Below, one piece after another: positions 9,900 to 22,454 of a DNA stretch of 28,372 nt. The position numbers and the translations under genes are program-made. A model generated the notes under the pieces. The model made no database searches. It was not told where the DNA came from and was given only the letters and a program-made list of their open reading frames with translations. This stretch comes from a virus. The stretch covers positions 1-28,372 of the IMG/VR virus record IMGVR_UViG_3300042478_002398, one strand, 5' to 3'. The stretch's first letter is position 1. The number at the start of each line of letters is the position of its first letter.

Positions 9900-10321
9900 A
9901 TCCGTTTGATTTTGTTAACAGCATTAACTCAACAGATAAAAAAGATCTTATTAACGCTGGACAAGCCTTAGAAGATGATTATGTTCCGTTTGTTGTTAAC
10001 AAGGCACTGTCCTACTTTCCTGAAACGATCCTTTATTCTAATCAGATAAACGCACTACCGCACGCAGGAAAAATACTCCAATATCACTATCTTCTAAATA
10101 CTGTTCGACCTGGAAAAAGGTTTGCTAAATGGGTGAAACGTGAGAACGTAGAAGATATTGAGGCTGTCAAAGAGTACTATAGTTATAGCATAGAAAAGGC
10201 ACACCAAGCGCTTGCAATTCTCACGGTTGATAATTTGAATTATATAAAACAAAAATTACAAAGTGGTAGGAATAATGATCAAATTGGAAACCTTAGTAGA
10301 AGTGACGCTAGCAAGCGATGA
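9896..10321 (+). CDS. 62: Clamp loader small subunit (gp62)
   Basis: This 141-residue protein aligns with the core of T4 gp62: VNKALSYFPE near 34-43, then HYLLNTVRPGKRFAKWVKR near 63-81, where the T4 protein has a closely similar GKRYGKWAK segment. It is shorter than T4 gp62 (187), lacking most of the N-terminal extension. One gp62 joins four gp44 subunits to form the clamp loader. Its 3' end overlaps the regA start by 47 bases in another frame, tighter packing than in the rest of the operon. Confidence 0.85.
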   Translation: MNPFDFVNSINSTDKKDLINAGQALEDDYVPFVVNKALSYFPETILYSNQINALPHAGKILQYHYLLNTVRPGKRFAKWVKRENVEDIEAVKEYYSYSIEKAHQALAILTVDNLNYIKQKLQSGRNNDQIGNLSRSDASKR

Positions 10322-10670
10322 AGACTTCTTAAAAGTACGCGAGACACTGACACGTATTGGTGTGGCATCCAAAAAAGAAAAGAAGCTATATCAGTCGTGT
10401 CATATTCTTCATAAACAAGGCCTGTACTACATCGTACACTTCAAAGAGTTGTTTGGCTTAGATAATAAGCCTTCAAACTTTTCTGAAGAAGATATTGCAC
10501 GGCGTAATACTATAGCCAACTTGATAGCAGAGTGGGGCTTAGTCAAGCTAGTTGACCCGATCAAAACAAAAGAACCTGTTTCAGCTATGTCACAAATAAA
10601 AATACTTCCCTACAAAGAAAAGGATGATTGGGAGCTGGTTGCCAAATACAATATTGGACGCAAACTCTAA
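10275..10670 (+). CDS. regA: RegA translational repressor
   Basis: The 131-residue protein closely matches T4 RegA (122): DFLKVRETLTRIGVA near 16-30, LYQSCHILHKQGLYYIVHFK near 38-57, and an ELVAKYNIGR end. RegA binds initiation regions of early phage mRNAs and blocks ribosome loading; in T4 its targets include clamp and clamp-loader genes. AGGAA at 10268-10272 before the ATG at 10275 supports that start; the GTG at 10263 is less likely. Its stop meets the 3' end of a minus-strand gene in a tail-to-tail overlap of 4 bases, with no clear terminator between them. Confidence 0.95.
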   Translation: MIKLETLVEVTLASDEDFLKVRETLTRIGVASKKEKKLYQSCHILHKQGLYYIVHFKELFGLDNKPSNFSEEDIARRNTIANLIAEWGLVKLVDPIKTKEPVSAMSQIKILPYKEKDDWELVAKYNIGRKL

Positions 10671-10981
10671 ATAGGATTGCCTTTATCAACAAGGCTAAAT
10701 TTACTGCCACCTGTAAGTATGCAATAAAGACCTGATTTGTGTTTTTCAGCTACTGTCCAGGTCTTTGTTTCACGGTTGACAAATAATATCATTGTTCCAG
10801 CATCGCTACCATTTTTGTCCGCTCGCTCAACCTCACCAATGATGAAAGGTTCCTCTTTGAATTCAGCTAACACTTCGGCCAAGGCTTTAAGTGGGAAACA
10901 CATCACTTGAAGCATCGATTGTGCTTGTGAGTAAGCTAAAGAGGAATAGAGAAGCAGGCCACCTAATAATATTTTTTTCAT
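10667..10981 (-). CDS. Small exported protein, minus-strand module
   Basis: The 104-residue product has a typical Sec signal peptide: two Lys, a hydrophobic run, then a SLAYSQAQ cleavage region near residues 13-21. The mature part of about 83 residues has two Cys, in MCFPL and GLYCILTGG, that could form a disulfide in the periplasm. TKTWTVAEKHKSGLYC resembles small periplasmic proteins seen in phages, but I know no function. I chose the ATG at 10981 because it starts the signal peptide and has AAGGAA upstream. A GATAAATAC element lies 22 bases before it, so it may have its own late transcript. It is the last gene of the minus-strand block and overlaps the regA end. Confidence 0.72.
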   Translation of the reverse strand: MKKILLGGLLLYSSLAYSQAQSMLQVMCFPLKALAEVLAEFKEEPFIIGEVERADKNGSDAGTMILFVNRETKTWTVAEKHKSGLYCILTGGSKFSLVDKGNPI

Positions 10982-11002
10982 AGTATTTTCCTTGAAGGTT
11001 TG

Positions 11003-11011
11003 GTATTTATC
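11003..11011 (-). promoter_or_regulatory. Late-type promoter element GATAAATAC
   Basis: On the minus strand this reads GATAAATAC, which fits the T4-family late consensus NATAAATA. It begins at the stop codon of the upstream gene and lies 22 bases before the start of the small exported protein, leaving room for a short leader with AAGGAA. The same nine bases precede the first gene of the block at 14144-14152. There is no -35 element, as expected for T4 late promoters. Confidence 0.5.
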
Positions 11012-11529
11012 TACCACTTCCCTGCTTCTTGTCCAAAGCCGTAAAACCAAACAAAGAATCGGATTGCGGCTGAAAGTGTTATAATTAATATTATGCCCCA
11101 AAAAACATTCTCAACGAACTTCTTACGACGCATAGCCTGATCGCGTATCATTTTTTCGCGACGCTCACGTATCTCACGTCGGAGTTGATTGAACTGGCTG
11201 TACCCTTCCGCGCCGAGGTGTTGAAGTTCTCCATAGTAAAACATATTGTAAATGTCCGTCTCCATTTCACGTAGTCTTTGCTGAGCTATAATAATATCAA
11301 ATGCTTCAGCGGTTTCACTCTTACCAAAACCAATCTTTTCGAATAATCCAACCTTCTGTTCACCCGTATCGGTTTTGTGATTGTTTATTAACTGTTGAAG
11401 TTGACCGGCTGCATCGGCCCATTTAGAGAGTTGTCTGTAAACACCTTCTATTTCTTGACCAACAGCAACAGCAGCTTTTAGTCCATTGAAGGCCGCTGTG
11501 ACCGTTGCCATTAGAGAGATTGGATCCAT
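11011..11529 (-). CDS. Membrane-anchored coiled-coil protein, minus-strand module
   Basis: The 172-residue protein starts with MDPISLMATVTAAFNGLKAA and has a long charged helical region (roughly residues 75-138, rich in Arg, Glu and Gln). It ends with one membrane segment near 141-163 and a short tail. I recall similar proteins annotated as hypothetical in marine T4-like phages. The C-terminal anchor suggests an inner-membrane protein with its bulk in the cytoplasm. Its start overlaps the stop of the preceding gene by one base (TAATG), implying coupled translation. It could be a scaffold or adaptor for the exported partners; lysis or holin function is not supported by its single, late membrane segment. 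Confidence 0.7.
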   Translation of the reverse strand: MDPISLMATVTAAFNGLKAAVAVGQEIEGVYRQLSKWADAAGQLQQLINNHKTDTGEQKVGLFEKIGFGKSETAEAFDIIIAQQRLREMETDIYNMFYYGELQHLGAEGYSQFNQLRREIRERREKMIRDQAMRRKKFVENVFWGIILIITLSAAIRFFVWFYGFGQEAGKW

Positions 11530-12194
11530 TAATTAGCCAGAGGATTGTCTAACGCTTTTTTAATCTTATCATCTACTTCACGGCGTATCGTTCTTAATTC
11601 CGCATTTGTTTCACGCTCAATACGATTGACACGCTCATTAACATTTTGTACCGTAGAGTCAACTTGCTTTTGCATTTCTCTTACTTGTGAATCAGCACTG
11701 CGGCGAATCTCTTTTATTTCTGCTTCAGTACCAAGTCTAATTTCTTTTATTTCACTGTCAATCTGTCTTCTAATTTGGTTTATATCTTTTTCAACTTCAC
11801 GTTGAGCAACTTTCGATCCGCGTTCAACGCCTTCTAAAACTTGTTCGGTTCGACGAATATCGCCTTTGAGATTCGTGTTCACATCACGGGTGTATCCCAA
11901 CATCTTTTCGTTATCTGCTTCTAATTTTATAATTCTTGCTTCATACTCACTGAAATCTGGTGCAACATAATTTGCAATTTTCTTCTTCATGCCCTCATAA
12001 TCTTTATACGCTTCGAATACACCATACATACCACCAATCACAGAAGAAACAATACCAAATGCAATCATTAACTTCGCTGGTGTGAAGCTATAACCACCAA
12101 TGCTAATAACAGTATCTTTACTAGCATATTGCTTCATTGCATCCTGAAGTTGATCGACTTTTTTATCGACGTTCTTATCTTCTGTACTGCTCAT
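11529..12194 (-). CDS. Membrane protein with long coiled coil, minus-strand module
   Basis: The 221-residue protein has a charged N-terminus, one membrane segment near residues 42-60, then a long coiled coil from about 80 to 215. The coiled coil is full of Glu, Arg, Lys and Ile heptads, with repeated units of the type EIKEIRR and REVDDKIKK. There is no signal peptide, so the topology is probably N-in with the coiled coil in the periplasm, or the reverse. It overlaps the 486-residue gene upstream by 20 bases and the next gene by one. It probably forms an oligomeric rod, but its partner is unknown. Coiled-coil regions align with many unrelated proteins, so homology calls need care. Confidence 0.7.
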   Translation of the reverse strand: MSSTEDKNVDKKVDQLQDAMKQYASKDTVISIGGYSFTPAKLMIAFGIVSSVIGGMYGVFEAYKDYEGMKKKIANYVAPDFSEYEARIIKLEADNEKMLGYTRDVNTNLKGDIRRTEQVLEGVERGSKVAQREVEKDINQIRRQIDSEIKEIRLGTEAEIKEIRRSADSQVREMQKQVDSTVQNVNERVNRIERETNAELRTIRREVDDKIKKALDNPLAN

Positions 12195-13635
12195 CTACCA
12201 TCTCCTTATGGATTCTATCCGACCTTTGATTGAGTTGTCGTAATGCTCTTGCGTTATCTGCAATTGTTGCACGTTTATAAATATCTTCTGCTTTGTAGAA
12301 AGGCATATCAGGTAATTTAGCCTGCTCGTACGCACTAAAACCAGGAACGGTAGACAATGAAGCCATTACAGCATCTTGCGGATCTTGTTGAGCGTTTCTT
12401 TGGGAAGATTGTTGACTTCTCTGTTGATCACCCGCGCGTCGTTGTTGTTCTCTTATTTGTTGCCTTTGTTGTTGGGGTGACTGTGGCGAAACATTACGAC
12501 TTGTTATATCAGTTCCTAGTTGCTGAGATTGTTGGTTAGAACTAAGAGCTTGATTAACAATTGGATCACTTGTTACTTGTGGTGTAGTTAATAACTTTGC
12601 AACATCTTCATTACCTACTGAAGGCACAGGAAGTGATGTTGTTGTAGATACCGCGGTAATCTGTTGTGTAACCGTATAACCTGGGCACTGTGGGTTGCTT
12701 TGTGGGTTTGCAGAACATGCATCAGCAATTTGTTTCTTTCTAAAAGCGTCGGCATATCCTGGGCAACCAGAATTGTAGAGCGGATTTAACGAACACTGTT
12801 GGTTGAAAAATGCTTGTTGATAAAGAGTGCATGCCTGAGAAAAAAGGGGATTGCGCGCGCACTGTTGGTTTAAATAAGCTGATTGATACCCAGGGCACTC
12901 AGGTGAATACAAAGGGTTCATCGAGCATTGTTGATTTCTATATGCCTGGGCATAACCTTGACAGTTAGGGCTGTATAAAGAATTGATACTACACTGTGAT
13001 TGAAAAAATGCTTGTTGATAATTAGGGCAAGTTGTTGCATAAAGAGGATTCACTGCACACTCATCAACAACATACATTGCATTCAATGAAATATTTCTAA
13101 CTTGTGGTCCATAATAACCAGCCCAATACCTATCATCCTTTCCGCTAAAACTAACTTCAAATCTATCAACAGATTGAAGATTGAAGGGGCTCCCGTAACT
13201 TCTTTTACTACTTACAGTTTCCCATCCATTAGTCTGATTAAGAAGATAGTTGTCTCTTTGTTTACTAAACCCAAATTCATCTTTCAGATCAACAGCGAAA
13301 GAAACGAAGCCTCTATTGAAGTCACTATTCATATACTGAAATGAATAATTGTATCCATGAAGTCTGAGATGGGTGCCTTGCAAAGCATCTCTCAACTTAA
13401 TTTCTTGACTTACTATTTGTTGAGTGTAACCAAACAAAATAGTTTGGGTTGCAGGATTATAAGCTGCGCGATTTCCCCCTGTTGTTCCTCCAGGATTATA
13501 ATTACCTGTAACAGTATTCGCCCAATTGTTTTGTATTAAATTGGGTGTTGTCTGTATATTCTGAGCGTTACAGAAGAATGAGAAGAATAGCCAAGACGCC
13601 AAGCCCAGCAGAAACTTTTTGCCAGAAACTTGCAT
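12175..13635 (-). CDS. Exported Cys-repeat protein, minus-strand module
   Basis: This is the largest gene of the block, 486 residues. A signal peptide spans about 1-24 (two Lys, then FLLGLASWLFFSFFCNA). Residues 26-190 look like a beta-sandwich, ending in a WAGYYGP segment near 171-177 that recalls lectin-like domains. Six two-Cys repeats follow at 193-326, then a Gln/Arg-rich linker (about 365-420) and a charged helical tail. Twelve Cys in regular spacing suggest disulfides in the periplasm or outside the cell. Its first 68 bases overlap the previous gene in another frame. Similar repeat proteins exist, I believe, in other marine phages as hypotheticals. The function is unknown; adhesion or envelope scaffolding is inference. 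Confidence 0.75.
   Translation of the reverse strand: MQVSGKKFLLGLASWLFFSFFCNAQNIQTTPNLIQNNWANTVTGNYNPGGTTGGNRAAYNPATQTILFGYTQQIVSQEIKLRDALQGTHLRLHGYNYSFQYMNSDFNRGFVSFAVDLKDEFGFSKQRDNYLLNQTNGWETVSSKRSYGSPFNLQSVDRFEVSFSGKDDRYWAGYYGPQVRNISLNAMYVVDECAVNPLYATTCPNYQQAFFQSQCSINSLYSPNCQGYAQAYRNQQCSMNPLYSPECPGYQSAYLNQQCARNPLFSQACTLYQQAFFNQQCSLNPLYNSGCPGYADAFRKKQIADACSANPQSNPQCPGYTVTQQITAVSTTTSLPVPSVGNEDVAKLLTTPQVTSDPIVNQALSSNQQSQQLGTDITSRNVSPQSPQQQRQQIREQQRRAGDQQRSQQSSQRNAQQDPQDAVMASLSTVPGFSAYEQAKLPDMPFYKAEDIYKRATIADNARALRQLNQRSDRIHKEMVDEQYRR
12658..13059 (-). repeat. Six in-frame 22-residue Cys repeats (66-base period)
   Basis: Within the 486-residue protein, units begin at Cys193, 215, 237, 259, 281 and 307. 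The first five are spaced exactly 22 residues, and a four-residue insertion precedes the sixth. The consensus is C-S-x-N-P-L-Y-S-x-x-C-P-G-Y-x-x-A-Y-x-N-Q-Q. Every unit keeps two Cys ten residues apart, and the last unit has lost the C-terminal QQ part. DNA identity between units is partial, so the array is old or under selection and not a recent slip. Confidence 0.9.
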
Positions 13636-14116
13636 TTGAATTCTCGCTTAAAGGTTTTGGTTTACGTTCAGGAGAAGTTTCCCAAACTCTTTTTGCATCT
13701 TCTCCAATCTTGCCGTCGACGGGACAGGGTGTTCCAGCATTCATCATAGCTTCGAACACTCGATCGTCTTGGCAGAGGGTAGCCACAGCAGCAACCTTCA
13801 TCCCCATGTCGTATAGATTTTTGGCAAGTTTTAAACGTTCGCAGTTTAAATCACGGACCATTGTTCCACCAGAGATACCTAATATTTGAGTTTGTACAGC
13901 TCCACCGACACCGACAGTACAAAGGTCGTTGTTCAATACATTGAATGAAGGTGATATTGCTGATGCTGGTGGCGATCGAACAGTGGTATCGTTGACACTA
14001 TTACTGTTTGTAGTTACAGTGCTTGTACTTTTTGAATCTGTAACAATCACATCACTTTGTGCAAACGCTAACGAAGACATAACAAAAAGCACCAAAAGTG
14101 ATAACTTTTTGAACAT
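13568..14116 (-). CDS. Exported protein with C-terminal membrane anchor, minus-strand module
   Basis: The 182-residue first gene of the block has a signal peptide (MFKKLSLLVLFVMSSLAFA) and a Ser/Thr-rich stretch at about 24-50. A Cys-containing domain at 64-145 includes CERLKLAKNLYDMGMKVAA and GTPCP, and a C-terminal hydrophobic segment covers the last 15 or so residues. This predicts a periplasmic domain anchored by its tail. I recall close relatives annotated as hypothetical in marine T4-like phages. AAGGA lies upstream of the ATG, and a GATAAATAC element lies 28 bases before it. Its final 68 bases are shared with the signal-peptide region of the next gene. Confidence 0.75.
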   Translation of the reverse strand: MFKKLSLLVLFVMSSLAFAQSDVIVTDSKSTSTVTTNSNSVNDTTVRSPPASAISPSFNVLNNDLCTVGVGGAVQTQILGISGGTMVRDLNCERLKLAKNLYDMGMKVAAVATLCQDDRVFEAMMNAGTPCPVDGKIGEDAKRVWETSPERKPKPLSENSNASFWQKVSAGLGVLAILLILL

Positions 14117-14143
14117 GTTATATCCTTTCTAACTCTACGGCCT

Positions 14144-14152
14144 GTATTTATC
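14144..14152 (-). promoter_or_regulatory. Late-type promoter element GATAAATAC driving the minus-strand block
   Basis: On the minus strand this reads GATAAATAC, fitting the T4-family late consensus NATAAATA. It lies 28 bases before the first minus-strand gene, in the short divergent gap (14117-14174) where there is little else. It is identical over nine bases to the element at 11003-11011. Late timing is inferred from the motif, not observed. Confidence 0.6.
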
Positions 14153-14441: not shown

Positions 14442-14753
14442 ATGCCTATCTATTTGATTAATTCCATTTCCACCTTTGCAATGCAGCATGCTATTGAAGC
14501 CGACACGCTCGAGCATGCTCTGGATGAAATGGTTATGACTGAACATGACCGCCATTTTGACGAAGTATCACAAAAATGGCTTGGCGAACAGCTGATCGAT
14601 GCTCGTGTAATCACAAAAGAAGAGCTGATTGACCATCTCCAGAAGCTAAAAGAGAATAAAGATTATATGACTTCTCATTGGATGGGCGAGAAGCTGATTC
14701 ACAAAGTTAAGTACAACGGAAGAGAATCAAATGAAACTACAGATAGTAAGTGA
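14442..14753 (+). CDS. Small conserved phage protein of unknown function
   Basis: The 103-residue protein begins MPIYLINSISTFAMQHAIEA, followed by HALDEMV and a QKWLGEQLIDARVITKEEL region. Similar small proteins, with a strand-helix start and a later LGE segment, occur in many phage genomes as I recall, without a known role. A strong AAGGAG (14431-14436) precedes the ATG by 5 bases. Its end overlaps the metallophosphoesterase gene by 23 bases. It is predicted soluble and acidic in the middle. Confidence 0.65.
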   Translation: MPIYLINSISTFAMQHAIEADTLEHALDEMVMTEHDRHFDEVSQKWLGEQLIDARVITKEELIDHLQKLKENKDYMTSHWMGEKLIHKVKYNGRESNETTDSK

Positions 14754-15501
14754 TCTTCATCTCGAGTTTGGACCTATTGAAATTCTGAATGCTGGTGATA
14801 CAGATGTTCTGATCTTGTCTGGTGATATCTGCCTTGCGTCAGAGTTTGATAAAGGTATCCGATCATTCTTTCAAAAATGCTCAGAAGAATTTAAAGACGT
14901 GATTTATATTATGGGTAATCACGAGCACTACAGTGGTGATTTTGCTCTGTCCGCAACATTGCTTCGTGAAGGACTGGAGGAGTTCACAAACATCCACTTT
15001 ATGGAAAAAAACACTATCACCATTAAAGATTATACCTTTATTGGCGCTACACTTTGGACCGATATGAATAAAAACGATCCAAACACTCTATGGCATGTGG
15101 GCCGTATGATGAATGACTTTCGTACCGTGAGAAACGGTGATAAAGGAAAGCTGAATCCTACAGATGTCTACGAAGAGCATCTGTCAACCCTGGAATACAT
15201 TCGTAGTGTAGTTGATAAAGATCCGATGCAGAAATATGTTGTTGTGGGACATCATGCACCTTCAAAGCAATCCATCAAGCCACACTATCGTGGTGATCAT
15301 TTAGTAAATGGTGCATACTCTTCAGACTTGTCGGAGTTCATCTTGGATCGTCCGCAAATTAAATTGTGGACGCACGGCCATACTCATGACAATTTTGATT
15401 ACATGGTTGGAACCACTCGTGTACTTTGTAATCCTCGTGGATATTACAAATATGAAGAAAACGACAACTTTGACCCTAACATGGTCGTGGAGCTTGAATG
15501 A
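14731..15501 (+). CDS. Calcineurin-like metallophosphoesterase
   Basis: This 256-residue protein has all the metal-site motifs of the family in order: SDLH (residues 7-10), SGD (30-32), GNHEHY (62-67), VVGHHAPS (near 172) and HGHTHDN (near 215). A dinuclear metal centre is therefore expected, with phosphodiesterase or phosphatase activity in the cytoplasm. The substrate may be a nucleotide, a cyclic nucleotide signal or a nucleic acid end. It overlaps the genes on both sides and lies next to dCMP deaminase, so a nucleotide substrate is plausible. Breakdown of a host defence signal is another possibility, without direct support. Confidence 0.85.
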   Translation: MKLQIVSDLHLEFGPIEILNAGDTDVLILSGDICLASEFDKGIRSFFQKCSEEFKDVIYIMGNHEHYSGDFALSATLLREGLEEFTNIHFMEKNTITIKDYTFIGATLWTDMNKNDPNTLWHVGRMMNDFRTVRNGDKGKLNPTDVYEEHLSTLEYIRSVVDKDPMQKYVVVGHHAPSKQSIKPHYRGDHLVNGAYSSDLSEFILDRPQIKLWTHGHTHDNFDYMVGTTRVLCNPRGYYKYEENDNFDPNMVVELE

Positions 15502-17639: not shown

Positions 17640-20336
17640 ATGAAGTTCTACACACACGTTTTCAAAGCGTTTGATAAGATTTATGTTCGTGGATATGAAG
17701 ATGGCGTTCGTTTTCAGGACGTTGTTGAATATGACCCATATATTTTTACCGCTTCTTTGACCGGTCGTTCAGAGTATAAGACCCTAGCAGGCAGGCCCGT
17801 AGCTAAGCTCCACCTTGGGTCGATGCGCGATGCGGCTAGCTACATCAAGAACAACAAAGACGTGGCTGGTCATGAGATGTATGGTTATGGTCCCGAATCA
17901 TATCACTACCAGTACATCAACGACGCTTTCCCAGGGGAGGTTAACTATGATCCCTCGTTGATATCTGTTGTCACGTTAGACATTGAAACAGATTCTGAAG
18001 GTGGATTTCCGAACATCAAAGAAGCAGATAAAGCACTAACAGCTATTACGATTCGTAAGAATCAACAAGCTGTTACGTTTGGACTCTTTCCGTACACACC
18101 AGAACTTGATTATGTCACATACGTCGAGTGCCGTAGTGAACGAGACATGATCGAAAGATTTCTCGCACTGTGGAGGACAGAGGAATGGATGCCTGATGTT
18201 GTTACAGGCTGGAACGTTGAGTTCTTCGATATTCCCTACCTGATCAACCGTATCACGCGGCTATTTGATGAAAAGGTTGCAAAAAGATTGTCGCCTTGGA
18301 ATCTCTGGGAACAACGCCGTGATCCGAGCTCGGAAGACATGGCTGAGTACATGAATATTCCGGCTGGTATATCCGTCCTGGACTACATGCAGTTGTACAA
18401 GAAGTTCTCGTTCACGAATCAAGAGTCCTTTAAACTTGACCATATTGCTTTTGTAGAGCTTGGTGAGCGTAAGTTGGATTTCAACGAACTTGGTTTTGAG
18501 ACTCTCGATGAGTTCTACAAAGGTGATTTTCGTAACTATATTAATTACAACATTCGTGACGTTGATCTTGTATACAAGCTAGATCAGAAGATGAAGTTCT
18601 TAGAGCAGGTATATGCTATTGCATACGACGGTAAGGTTAACTTCATCGACAGCTTGACCACAGTGAGTATGTGGGATGTTATCATCCACAACTATCTGAT
18701 GGAGCGTAAGATTGTGATCCCGATAAAGAGCATTGGGAACAAACCTCGTCAGATCGAAGGTGCATATGTGAAAGACCCTCAGTGTGGAATACACGATTGG
18801 GTCGTATCATTTGACTTGAACAGTCTGTATCCACACCTGATCATGCAGTACAACATCTCACCTGAAACGATGCGTGGGCAGTTAATGCAATACGATCTCA
18901 GCGTCACATCGAAGAGTGTTGATATGTTTCTTGATGGTGAGCTAGATGTTGTGCGGGATGAGCAACAACGTAATCAGCTTCGCGAAGATATCAAAAACGC
19001 AGTCAATGGGTTTGCTCCTAATTCGTCATCATCAAAACTGACTGACTACTTTTTGAACTTTGAGACCATTCGCGAACCACTAGAGAAGCATAACCTAACT
19101 ATCGCACCGACTGGTTGTGTGTTCGACAAAACAACACGAGGATTTCTGCCTACTCTCATGGAGACCATGTACAATGATCGGTCTTTGTGGAAGAAGCGAA
19201 TGCTTGAGGCAAAGAAGGCGTATGAACAGACTCCTACACGAGAACTTTCAAACGAGATTGCAAGATGTCATAACATGCAGCTCGCTAAAAAGATTCAGCT
19301 GAATAGTGCTTATGGCGCCTTGTCGAATCAGTTCTTTCGTTGGTTTGATAACAGGCTTGCGGAATCAATTACAAAGTCTGGTCAGCTCTCTATTCGATGG
19401 ATGGAGAAGAAGATCAATGCACAGTTAAACAAGATCCTCAGGACAGATAACGAGGACTTTGTGATTGCTATTGATACGGACTCGATGTATATCAAACTTG
19501 GTAAGTTTGTTGAGAAAACATATCCCGATCGCAATAAACCAATAACCGTTACATATATCGACAAAGTGTGTGCGGAATACTTTGAGCCTTTCATTGATAA
19601 AAGCTACCAAGAGCTTGCTGATTATGTTTCTGCATATGAGCAGAAAATGAAAATGAAACGAGAGGCCATTGCTGATAAAGGTCTTTGGACGGGAAAGAAA
19701 CACTACATACTGAATGTTTATGATCTCGAGGGTGTTAGGTTTGCAGAACCTAAACTGAAAATTCAAGGTATCGAGTCTGTTCGTTCATCGACACCTGCAA
19801 CCTGTCGTGAGCATCTCAAAGCAGCATTCTCTGTTATCATGAACGAAAACGAGTCCTCTCTACAAAAGTTTATCAAAGACTATCGTAGAGTTTTCAAGAC
19901 GTTGCCTTTTGAAGATATCGCTTTTCCTCGTAGCGTAAGAGGGATGTTGAAAAGTGATCAGTTTGATAAGAAGACAAAAAAGCTCATACAGAAATCCTAT
20001 AACACAGGAACGATGAATTTCTTACTGGGCACACCGATCCACGTCAAAGGATCGTTGATGTATAACCATCTTATCCATCTCAAGAATCTTGAAACTAAGT
20101 ATATGCCTATTGGTGAAGGTGAGAAGATTAAGTTCTGTTATCTGCTTGACTCCTCACCCCTACCGACAAATGTTATCGCTGCACCAGGAAAGCTACCTAA
20201 AGAGCTTGGACTAAACAAATTCCTCGATTACGATACGCAGTTCGACAAATCATTTATGGAACCATTGCGTACAATCATGGAAGCAATTGGATGGAAGGAA
20301 GAAAATGAACAACAAAGCCTCGATCAGTTCTTTTGA
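17640..20336 (+). CDS. 43: Family B DNA polymerase (gp43)
   Basis: The protein has 898 residues, the same length as T4 gp43. Exonuclease motifs are present: LDIETDSEGG near 113-122 (Asp114, Glu116), GWNVEFFDIPYL near 190-201, and YNIRDVDLVYKL near 301-312. Polymerase motif A, SFDLNSLYPHL, lies near 388-398; motif B, LNSAYGALSNQFFRW, near 557-571; and motif C, IAIDTDSMYI, near 609-618. The usual Gly before DTDS is Ile. The C-terminus, QQSLDQFF, is a clamp-binding peptide for gp45. The frame is continuous with no intron or intein. A hairpin precedes the start, and the end overlaps the next gene by 32 bases. Confidence 0.98.
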   Translation: MKFYTHVFKAFDKIYVRGYEDGVRFQDVVEYDPYIFTASLTGRSEYKTLAGRPVAKLHLGSMRDAASYIKNNKDVAGHEMYGYGPESYHYQYINDAFPGEVNYDPSLISVVTLDIETDSEGGFPNIKEADKALTAITIRKNQQAVTFGLFPYTPELDYVTYVECRSERDMIERFLALWRTEEWMPDVVTGWNVEFFDIPYLINRITRLFDEKVAKRLSPWNLWEQRRDPSSEDMAEYMNIPAGISVLDYMQLYKKFSFTNQESFKLDHIAFVELGERKLDFNELGFETLDEFYKGDFRNYINYNIRDVDLVYKLDQKMKFLEQVYAIAYDGKVNFIDSLTTVSMWDVIIHNYLMERKIVIPIKSIGNKPRQIEGAYVKDPQCGIHDWVVSFDLNSLYPHLIMQYNISPETMRGQLMQYDLSVTSKSVDMFLDGELDVVRDEQQRNQLREDIKNAVNGFAPNSSSSKLTDYFLNFETIREPLEKHNLTIAPTGCVFDKTTRGFLPTLMETMYNDRSLWKKRMLEAKKAYEQTPTRELSNEIARCHNMQLAKKIQLNSAYGALSNQFFRWFDNRLAESITKSGQLSIRWMEKKINAQLNKILRTDNEDFVIAIDTDSMYIKLGKFVEKTYPDRNKPITVTYIDKVCAEYFEPFIDKSYQELADYVSAYEQKMKMKREAIADKGLWTGKKHYILNVYDLEGVRFAEPKLKIQGIESVRSSTPATCREHLKAAFSVIMNENESSLQKFIKDYRRVFKTLPFEDIAFPRSVRGMLKSDQFDKKTKKLIQKSYNTGTMNFLLGTPIHVKGSLMYNHLIHLKNLETKYMPIGEGEKIKFCYLLDSSPLPTNVIAAPGKLPKELGLNKFLDYDTQFDKSFMEPLRTIMEAIGWKEENEQQSLDQFF

Positions 20337-20777: not shown

Positions 20778-21805
20778 TGAGTGAATTTTTACGTGATCTG
20801 ATTAAGGAACTTAAAGATGAAGACACTTCTTTGGCCTCTGACGGCTCTGGTAGTGCTGAGTTTGGGGGTTTTATTGATACTGGTAGCTACATTCTCAACG
20901 CTGTTCTCTCGGGTAGCCTCTATGGTGGCGTACCTGATAATAAAGTTACTGCATTTGCAGGCGAGTCCGCTACTGGTAAGACTTACTTCGTTCTTGGGGT
21001 CGTCAGGAGTTTCCTCGACAAACATCCCAAAGGAGCAGTCGTCTACTACGACACAGAAGCAGCCGTAACAAAGCATATGATGGAGGAGCGTGGTATTGAC
21101 ACGTCTCGTGTTATCATTGCTGAGCCTGATACCATTCAGAAGTTTAAAACCCATGCATTGAAATTGCTCGATGCATACGAACAAAAAGAAGAAGCATCAC
21201 GTCCACCGATGATGTTTGTGTTGGATAGCTTGGGAATGCTTTCTACTTCCAAAGAGATGGAAGATAGTCTCGAAGGTAAAGATACCAGAGACATGACTAA
21301 AGCACAGATTATTAAAGCAGCTTTTAGAGTGTTGACTCTTAAACTAGCGAAGGTGAGAATCCCTCTGCTTGTAACTAATCACGTCTATGAACTCGTCGGT
21401 TCATACGTGCCAACAAAGGAGCTCGGTGGTGGAACAGGACTTAAATATGCGGCTAGCACTATTGCTATGCTCTCCAAACGTAAGGAAAAAGATGGCACTG
21501 ACGTCGTCGGAAACATTGTCAAGATCAAAATGTACAAATCCCGACTTTCAAAAGAAAACAGTCAAGCAGAAGTGTTACTTACTTACGCCAAAGGACTTGA
21601 CAGGTACTACGGTCTCCTTGAGCTAGCAGAGAAGTACGGAGTATTTAAAAAGGTGTCTACACGATATCAACTACCAGACGGTACGAGTGCCTTTGGTAAA
21701 AATATTAATGAAGACCCAGAAAAATATTATACTGATGAAGTGATGAAGCTGCTGGAAGCAGCAGCACAACAAGAATTTAAATATGGAGTGAATACAAATG
21801 AGTGA
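20777..21805 (+). CDS. uvsX: UvsX/RecA-like recombinase
   Basis: The 342-residue protein has Walker A GESATGKT at 62-69, Walker B MMFVLDSLGM near 145-154, and GLKYAAS near 218-224, typical of RecA-fold recombinases. UvsX drives strand invasion for recombination-dependent replication and repair. The length is near T4 UvsX (391) but shorter at the C-terminus. GAGGAG at 20767-20772 is 4 bases before the ATG at 20777; a GTG at 20771 is unlikely. The end overlaps the oxygenase gene by 8 bases. Confidence 0.95.
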   Translation: MSEFLRDLIKELKDEDTSLASDGSGSAEFGGFIDTGSYILNAVLSGSLYGGVPDNKVTAFAGESATGKTYFVLGVVRSFLDKHPKGAVVYYDTEAAVTKHMMEERGIDTSRVIIAEPDTIQKFKTHALKLLDAYEQKEEASRPPMMFVLDSLGMLSTSKEMEDSLEGKDTRDMTKAQIIKAAFRVLTLKLAKVRIPLLVTNHVYELVGSYVPTKELGGGTGLKYAASTIAMLSKRKEKDGTDVVGNIVKIKMYKSRLSKENSQAEVLLTYAKGLDRYYGLLELAEKYGVFKKVSTRYQLPDGTSAFGKNINEDPEKYYTDEVMKLLEAAAQQEFKYGVNTNE

Positions 21806-22454
21806 AAATGCCCTTGTCCCAGCAGAATCTGCTTCTTACACAGCAGCTACCACGGAGTTTAATAAGCTGAATTATCAGCCTATTTTTCCGACTCTTATTA
21901 CAACGGTCAAATTGGATCTTCCTGTTGCTGAAATGAAGGCCGGTCTCCTTCAGCTTGCAGGTGAATCACAAAACTACGAAGGTGGGTTTACTACGTTCTT
22001 TAATCGTCAAGAGCTAGATCATGTTTCGGGAATCAAGCAGCTTAAAGAAGCCATCTATGGCATTGCCTGTGCATTTGGGCGAGAATTGAAATACGAATGC
22101 AATTACGATAAATGTTCTATCCAACTCTGGGTTAATGTTATGAGGAAAGGTGGCTATCACCCACCTCATAACCATGCACGTTCCACCTTCTCTGGGACGT
22201 ATTATGCAGAGGTGAATGATAACATGAGTCCTTTCGTGTTTTTTAACCCAACGAAAGACCTACGTATGCATGATCCAGTTGTACGGCCAGAAGATGCTGG
22301 TCCGTTTACTTCCGAGCAGATGATCATCAAACCAGAAACCGGATCTCTTTCCATGTGGCCGTCGTGGTTGTATCATCACGTACCACAAATGAATGTAGAT
22401 GGTCCACGTGTTTCACTTTCCTTCAATGTAGATTTTCTTCCGCCAGGAGCATAA
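21798..22454 (+). CDS. 2OG-Fe(II) oxygenase (TIGR02466-like)
   Basis: The 218-residue protein contains WVNVMRKGGYHPPHNH at 111-126, a late GSLSMWPSWLYHHVP at 182-196 and an Arg at 204 in RVSLSF. These are the iron and 2-oxoglutarate ligand segments of the putative oxygenase family TIGR02466, common in marine T4-like phages between uvsX and the helicase gene. The substrate is not established; protein or nucleobase hydroxylation are both possible. The helicase start follows its stop codon directly with no gap. Confidence 0.85.
   Translation: MSENALVPAESASYTAATTEFNKLNYQPIFPTLITTVKLDLPVAEMKAGLLQLAGESQNYEGGFTTFFNRQELDHVSGIKQLKEAIYGIACAFGRELKYECNYDKCSIQLWVNVMRKGGYHPPHNHARSTFSGTYYAEVNDNMSPFVFFNPTKDLRMHDPVVRPEDAGPFTSEQMIIKPETGSLSMWPSWLYHHVPQMNVDGPRVSLSFNVDFLPPGA

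Follow-up and report, generated by a model that had tools for sequence, protein, structure and literature searches.

Four overlapping genes on the minus strand of a viral genome fragment (IMG/VR record IMGVR_UViG_3300042478_002398, positions 1 to 28,372; this whole 28,372-nt stretch is referred to here as the window) form a mobile cassette that is likely to be transcribed late in infection and whose products, P1 to P4, appear to be directed to the host cell envelope. At a probability that we put at roughly 0.38, these proteins would build a glycan-binding envelope assembly that masks a surface glycan of the host, excludes competitors and spares the released progeny. The key protein is P2. Its sugar-binding-like head has been exchanged between unrelated phages, and this exchangeable head is the most informative feature of the cassette. 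It had escaped an earlier annotation made from the letters of the window (below, the sequence-only reading), which described a linked, envelope-directed module of five genes. Signal peptides, membrane segments and linkage in relatives bear out such a module; its extent turned out to be different.

The window is T4-like, with a gp43 polymerase about 46% identical to those of cyanomyoviruses. As the sequence-only reading had described, five open reading frames (ORFs), P1 to P5, lie on the minus strand between regA (10263-10670; PF01818 match, 2.7e-43) and the plus-strand genes leading toward gp43 (17640-20336, plus strand; PF00136 match, 2.3e-25), and start/stop overlaps join four of them: P1 and P2 share 68 nt, P2 and P3 20 nt, P3 and P4 a single nucleotide (Table 1). 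A profile search of IMG/VR with P1 returned at least 594 relatives, from which 80 P1 loci were kept to count gene order, the ratios being calculated over testable loci. P2 directly follows P1 in 60 of 60 loci, and P3 is no more than seven genes further on in 45 of 48. An overlap of P1 with P2 was seen in 84 of 90 loci. The comparison of joint presence and order that had been proposed thus finds the genes linked, and P1-P2-P3-P4 are kept together in the IMG/VR relatives; isolated phages of Pelagibacter and Roseobacter show the P1-P2-P3(-P4) order as well. The conserved unit consists of P1 to P4 and their homologues rather than five genes. P5 was rejected as a member, being present only in the closest relatives: just two IMG/VR contigs contain it, both with a 100% identical protein.

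The cassette has moved as a unit between T4-like phages and phages encoding DNA polymerase A (PolA). Large contigs carrying it fall into two groups, one T4-like, with a T4 portal (E ~1e-180) or PolB, the other with PolA (E ~1e-75) and no match to the T4 portal or PolB. Between the window and the PolA phage L018, P1 is 73%, P3 79% and P4 82% identical, and the surrounding genes are unrelated. Nor is the cassette tied to the replication region, to which the sequence-only reading had assigned it, as other phages have it between their tail-fibre genes and their lysis genes. Homologues of P1 occur in 11 phage records; named carriers are the Pelagibacter phages HTVC202P, HTVC115P, HTVC023P, HTVC033P and Baldr, the T4-like Mosig, and the Roseobacter phages CRP-207 and CRP-810, all with products of no known function. 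Homologues of P4 are present in Limnohabitans phage DC31 and Roseobacter phage CRP-4. Lysozyme labels attached to CRP-207 gp73 (L030) and CRP-810 gp51 (L031) were set aside, the sequences being those of P3-like, membrane-anchored coiled-coil proteins.

Within this constant frame, the head of P2 has a history of its own. When the window is compared with the T4-like contigs L004, L015, L114 and L116, P1 is 92-93%, the P2 C-terminus 95-97% and P3 95-99% identical, and the head only 40-43%. The PolA phages L006, L010 and L018 show the reverse pattern (P1 72-73%, P2 C-terminus 57-58%, head 85-86%). Along the DNA, from 13567 to 12886, L018 matches the window at 214 of 251 informative sites, against 175 of 775 elsewhere (Z 17.8). 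The head of the window's P2 has thus been recombined in from an unrelated PolA lineage. The case is not isolated: in the pair L081 and L085, P1 is 97%, P3 98% and the P2 C-terminus 93% identical, with a head at 40%, and the median identities over 181 pairs are 74% for P1, 38% for the head, 60% for the P2 C-terminus and 80% for P3. Such swapping of a head on fixed anchors resembles the exchange of tail-fibre tips. Since a single binding domain is replaced while its anchors stay the same, the pattern suggests that the ligand of P2 differs between hosts; a host-variable ligand would in turn favour a surface glycan over peptidoglycan, which hardly varies between hosts.

An AlphaFold model of P2, built with 46 relatives, predicts a confident head (residues 26-190, predicted local distance difference test [pLDDT] scores mostly above 90) and stalk (190-310), followed by a disordered or helical linker and a helix at the C-terminus. 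The structure nearest to the modelled head is 1umh, the sugar-binding domain of Fbs1 (Z 13.4; root-mean-square deviation 3.3 over 153 residues), and CBM16 and phage tailspike domains follow at Z of about 11. Sequence identity to the Fbs1/FBA and CBM16 domains is 13-18%, and these share the fold of the head (Z 13.4 and 11) but belong to a eukaryotic or enzyme context. By this comparison the head has the predicted fold of a carbohydrate-binding beta-sandwich. The stalk consists of Cys repeats whose number varies from 0 to 14 among relatives. In a longer version of the cassette, P1 is followed by a short P2, then by three genes for small products of 166, about 129 and about 150 amino acids (aa), mostly with signal peptides, and finally by P3. 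P2 proteins with three or more Cys repeats are found in 0 of 36 loci having the three extra genes and in 45 of 58 loci without them, an anti-correlation that is confounded by descent. The three small genes between the short P2 and P3 can be seen at L064:6149-7489, at L101:9366-10637 and in about 36 similar loci. Profile searches against solved structures gave no match for P2 or for the three extra proteins. The 166-aa secreted protein matched FimH_man-bind only at E = 0.036, below the cut-off, and the extra genes gave no chaperone or usher match, so that a chaperone-usher reading is left with this weak FimH hint. P1 was also considered as a paralogue of a 153-aa protein of the longer version and rejected, as only the signal peptides align.

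The anatomy of P1 to P4 is well supported. The N-termini of P1, P2 and P5, read by eye, have a basic start, then a run of hydrophobic residues and a Sec-type cleavage site resembling AXA. The three Sec signal peptides and the two proteins with one membrane segment listed in the sequence-only reading were both seen; what it had overlooked is the C-terminal hydrophobic segment of P1 (residues 164-182). P1 also has invariant Cys residues at positions 66, 92, 115 and 131; its AlphaFold model had a mean pLDDT of 65 and was left out of the fold search. In P3, one Lys or Arg precedes the membrane segment and four follow it, a charge pattern that suggests an N-out, C-in topology; the N-terminus of P4 is predicted to be cytoplasmic, likewise by charge. 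None of P1 to P5 matched a curated family above cut-off in Pfam, PHROGs, NCBIfam or PADLOC, the coiled-coil matches of P3 not being specific. Among the latter, Zorya ZorA was rejected, as P3 matches the coiled-coil tails of its models only and not the MotA/ExbB-type membrane domain (PADLOC E 2e-4; NCBIfam 13.2 bits against a cut-off of 750). P1 aligned with the endolysin family phrog_669 at E = 0.043 through a low-complexity stretch, and P5 gave a weak match to phrog_25396. A match to a standard lysis family, which the sequence-only reading had named as an outcome speaking against it, was not credibly recovered for P1 to P4.

Transcription of the cassette is likely to be late, because of where a late-promoter-like motif stands and not of how often it occurs. 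The count of NATAAATA in the window is not above chance (7 seen, 7.7 expected), and motif counts alone were rejected as promoter evidence. Of 19 T4-like relatives, 13 have the motif in the 90 nt preceding P1, in many cases at a distance of 30-37 nt, against 8 of 255 other gene starts of the same loci (Fisher 8e-13, a value that overstates independence, as two of the 19 loci belong to one contig and there is relatedness among the rest). In one T4-like relative, the coding strand of the capsid/tail region has six such motifs, each of them 28-57 nt before a late gene; one precedes the gene for a 449-aa product at the position of the major capsid protein, and the opposite strand of this region has no NATAAATA motif. 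The sequence-only reading had noted sequence elements before the first and last genes and proposed that the module is made late. Both elements were found, as GATAAATA, the distance to the gene start being 36 nt for P1 and 30 nt for P5. The timing is probably right; the motif before P1 is of the late type by position.

Some cassettes carry cargo. In the T4-like L116 and L117 and in the PolA-type L009, genes for a metallophosphoesterase and a GT4 glycosyltransferase (PF00149, PF00534) have been inserted precisely at the junction of P3 and P4, and the pair is 79% identical between T4-like and PolA-type phage. It may resemble PlcP-Agt, the pair with which marine bacteria remodel their lipids under phosphate starvation. 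At L086:11951-12670, P4 is followed by a secreted D-Ala-D-Ala carboxypeptidase (PF00768, 1.2e-34) that has a 53% identical relative in the cassette locus at L038:5681-6373. Both kinds of cargo point to envelope glycans or lipids. PstS-like phosphate-binding proteins, assigned by sequence only, are encoded near the cassette in unrelated contigs (L022:10151-11143 and L018:17893-18909).

In the assembly that we favour, P2 would be exported by Sec, and its head would bind a host-variable glycan, most likely lipopolysaccharide, capsule or another surface polysaccharide. The disulphide-bonded repeat stalk may set the reach of the head, and the C-terminus may dock the protein. P1, a disulphide-bonded protein as well, would partner P2 in the periplasm, with its own C-terminus as anchor; as inner-membrane proteins with mainly cytoplasmic helical parts, P3 and P4 could form a platform. 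Late in infection the assembly would occupy or cross-link the surface glycan of the host, so that competing phages would be excluded and progeny would not be lost on debris. The Llp protein of phage T5 is a single early lipoprotein that acts on a protein receptor, protecting progeny and excluding superinfection. The mechanism proposed here is like that of such masking lipoproteins, but the cassette differs in having four late genes and a glycan-binding-like head.

Several points weigh against glycan masking. The function is an inference; a predicted sugar-binding fold is no proof of sugar binding; and exclusion genes are less often expressed late. The head has no recognisable relative among the other genes of eight contigs, as far as a sequence search reaches, and the idea that it is a copy of a tail-fibre tip was rejected when this search gave no second match. 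Finally, the frequent neighbourhood of lysis genes fits a role in lysis at least as well.

Such a role, in which the cassette would weaken or break the outer layers at the end of infection, alongside spanins or in their place, is in our estimate only somewhat less likely than glycan masking. P2, for example, could link outer-membrane or cell-wall glycan to the inner membrane through P1, P3 and P4. In PolA-type phages, P4 overlaps a lysis operon made of an Rz-like inner-membrane spanin (i-spanin), an Rz1-like lipoprotein (PF23793, 3.6e-4) and an endolysin (phrog_181, 7e-76). In marine phages with the longer version, the genes after P3 encode an EF-hand protein with two transmembrane segments, a GTA_holin_3TM holin (1.2e-23) and a GH19-type endolysin; in Mosig a PF11351 holin precedes P1, and in DC31 genes for a spanin-like protein and an M15 endolysin come two genes after P4. 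Lysis-labelled genes occur within 5 kb downstream of 26 of 48 P1 loci and of 24 of 103 control genes. This enrichment, however, is only about twofold. Phages with the cassette also have canonical spanins and an endolysin, encoded in the same operon or, in two T4-like contigs, elsewhere in the genome; the cassette therefore does not simply replace spanins in those phages. Nor was a substitution pattern seen, as lipoprotein outer-membrane spanin (o-spanin) candidates are missing in pelagiphages with and without P1. The sole o-spanin candidate in six complete P1-positive and four P1-negative genomes was a 38-aa chance frame, which was rejected, and PF03245 (Rz) had no match in ten genomes; as the o-spanin detector missed one of four positive controls, the comparison does not discriminate. 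A head that is exchanged would also be unexpected with peptidoglycan as the target.

Likenesses to known lysis proteins can be drawn along the same lines. Spanin-endolysin-holin cassettes are likewise envelope-directed, late and often adjoining, and P3, like some of their products, combines a membrane segment with a coiled coil, but P1 to P4 include no lipoprotein o-spanin, endolysin or recognised holin. No lipobox is present in P1, P2 or P5, and the true spanin pair is separate and downstream. The Mu gp25 releasin (DUF2730, PF10805; PMC9239132) shares with P3 a short N-terminal membrane segment, a coiled-coil part and a position near the endolysin in some phages, and may share with it an N-out/C-in orientation with the coiled coil in the cytoplasm, which charge predicts for P3; one P3 homologue was labelled DUF2730 by its depositors. 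Against PF10805, P3 scores 13.1 bits (cut-off 24.9; E = 0.11), and four homologues have no match at E 0.1. P3 is also longer than Mu gp25, and Mu has no counterpart of the P1-P2-P3 unit of which P3 is part.

It is improbable, in our view, that P2 serves as a stalked lectin displayed outside the infected cell to hold neighbours of the same strain close before the burst, although the head-stalk-anchor build, the exchange of the head and the variation in stalk length would suit this purpose. The precedent is the curli, or type VIII secretion, module of pelagiphages, which is Sec-dependent, has been transferred between myo- and podo-pelagiphages, and for which aggregation, superinfection defence or a function in lysis timing has been proposed (PMC9599517, PMC9004378). 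Both are multi-gene envelope modules found in distant aquatic phage families. The cassette differs from the curli module in gene order, in the sugar-binding-like head and in lacking a recognised outer-membrane pore; no usher or other exporter was recognised in it either, and the curli phage Melnitz showed no aggregation. In Pfam, neither P1 to P5 nor the additional genes of the longer version had a match to CsgG, CsgF or the curlin repeat (CsgA/B) at E values up to 1. That P2 and its partners sit on the virion as accessory adhesins is less probable still: tail-fibre genes adjoin the cassette in several phages and the head folds like domains of tail fibres and tailspikes, but the signal peptides of P1 and P2 lead away from the cytoplasm, where T4-like virions assemble, and P1, P3 and P4 are membrane proteins.

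The coordinates of the features are collected in Table 1. For P5, the ATG at 10981 is preferred as the start, the listed TTG at 11101 being less likely. Elsewhere in the window, genes for a GTP cyclohydrolase I (2240-2917), a calcineurin-like phosphoesterase (14731-15501) and a 2OG-Fe(II) oxygenase (21798-22454) flank the replication genes.

Table 1. Features of the cassette and its surroundings (window positions unless a contig is given).
Feature	Position	Strand	Description
P1, 182 aa	13568..14116	-	Signal peptide, S/T-rich stretch, four-Cys domain, C-terminal hydrophobic segment
P2, 486 aa	12175..13635	-	Signal peptide; head (beta-sandwich); stalk of Cys repeats; disordered or helical linker; conserved helix at the C-terminus
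P2 head, residues 26-190	13066..13560	-	Predicted carbohydrate-binding (galactose-binding-like) fold; AlphaFold and structure comparison
P2 stalk, residues 191-320	12676..13065	-	Repeats of about 22 aa, two Cys each, CxxNPLYxxxCPGYxxAYxxQQ
Recombined segment (P2 head and first repeats)	12886..13567	-	Informative-site comparison with L018
P3, 221 aa	11529..12194	-	Membrane segment 42-60, then long charged coiled coil ending NPL
P4, 172 aa	11011..11529	-	Helical; C-terminal membrane segment 142-160 after Arg/Lys
P5, 104 aa	10667..10981	-	Secreted by signal peptide, two Cys; ATG start; local neighbour outside the conserved unit
GATAAATA late-promoter-like element	14145..14152	-	36 nt before P1
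GATAAATA late-promoter-like element	11004..11011	-	30 nt before P5; overlaps P4 stop codon
Metallophosphoesterase/GT4 pair	L009:3483-5268; L116:6240-8001; L117:1587-3348

The sequence-only reading knew of no described system with this gene set, and a search of the open-access literature (subscription journals and preprints were outside its scope) found no description of one. Caution is due in calling the P1-P4 set new, since that claim rests on an absence of matches and on an unproven function. Possibly, at somewhat less than even odds, the cassette represents an undescribed class of phage-made machine of the envelope or the cell surface that is common among aquatic phages. Its anchor genes would be constant, its lectin-like head would be exchanged among unrelated phages so as to fit the glycan of a host that they have in common, and the stalk would come either from the Cys repeats of P2 or from the three small secreted proteins of the longer version. 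Found in at least 594 virome stretches, and in isolates of Pelagibacter and Roseobacter phages among them, the P1 family has no member with an assigned function. The cassette is small enough to be deleted or expressed whole, and with cultured phages carrying it the proposal is directly testable. If it is true, many aquatic phages would fit the envelope of the dying cell with a structure that binds glycan in a host-specific way. A further layer would then lie between the expression of late genes and lysis, and the head of P2 would be a sequence marker for host surface glycans.

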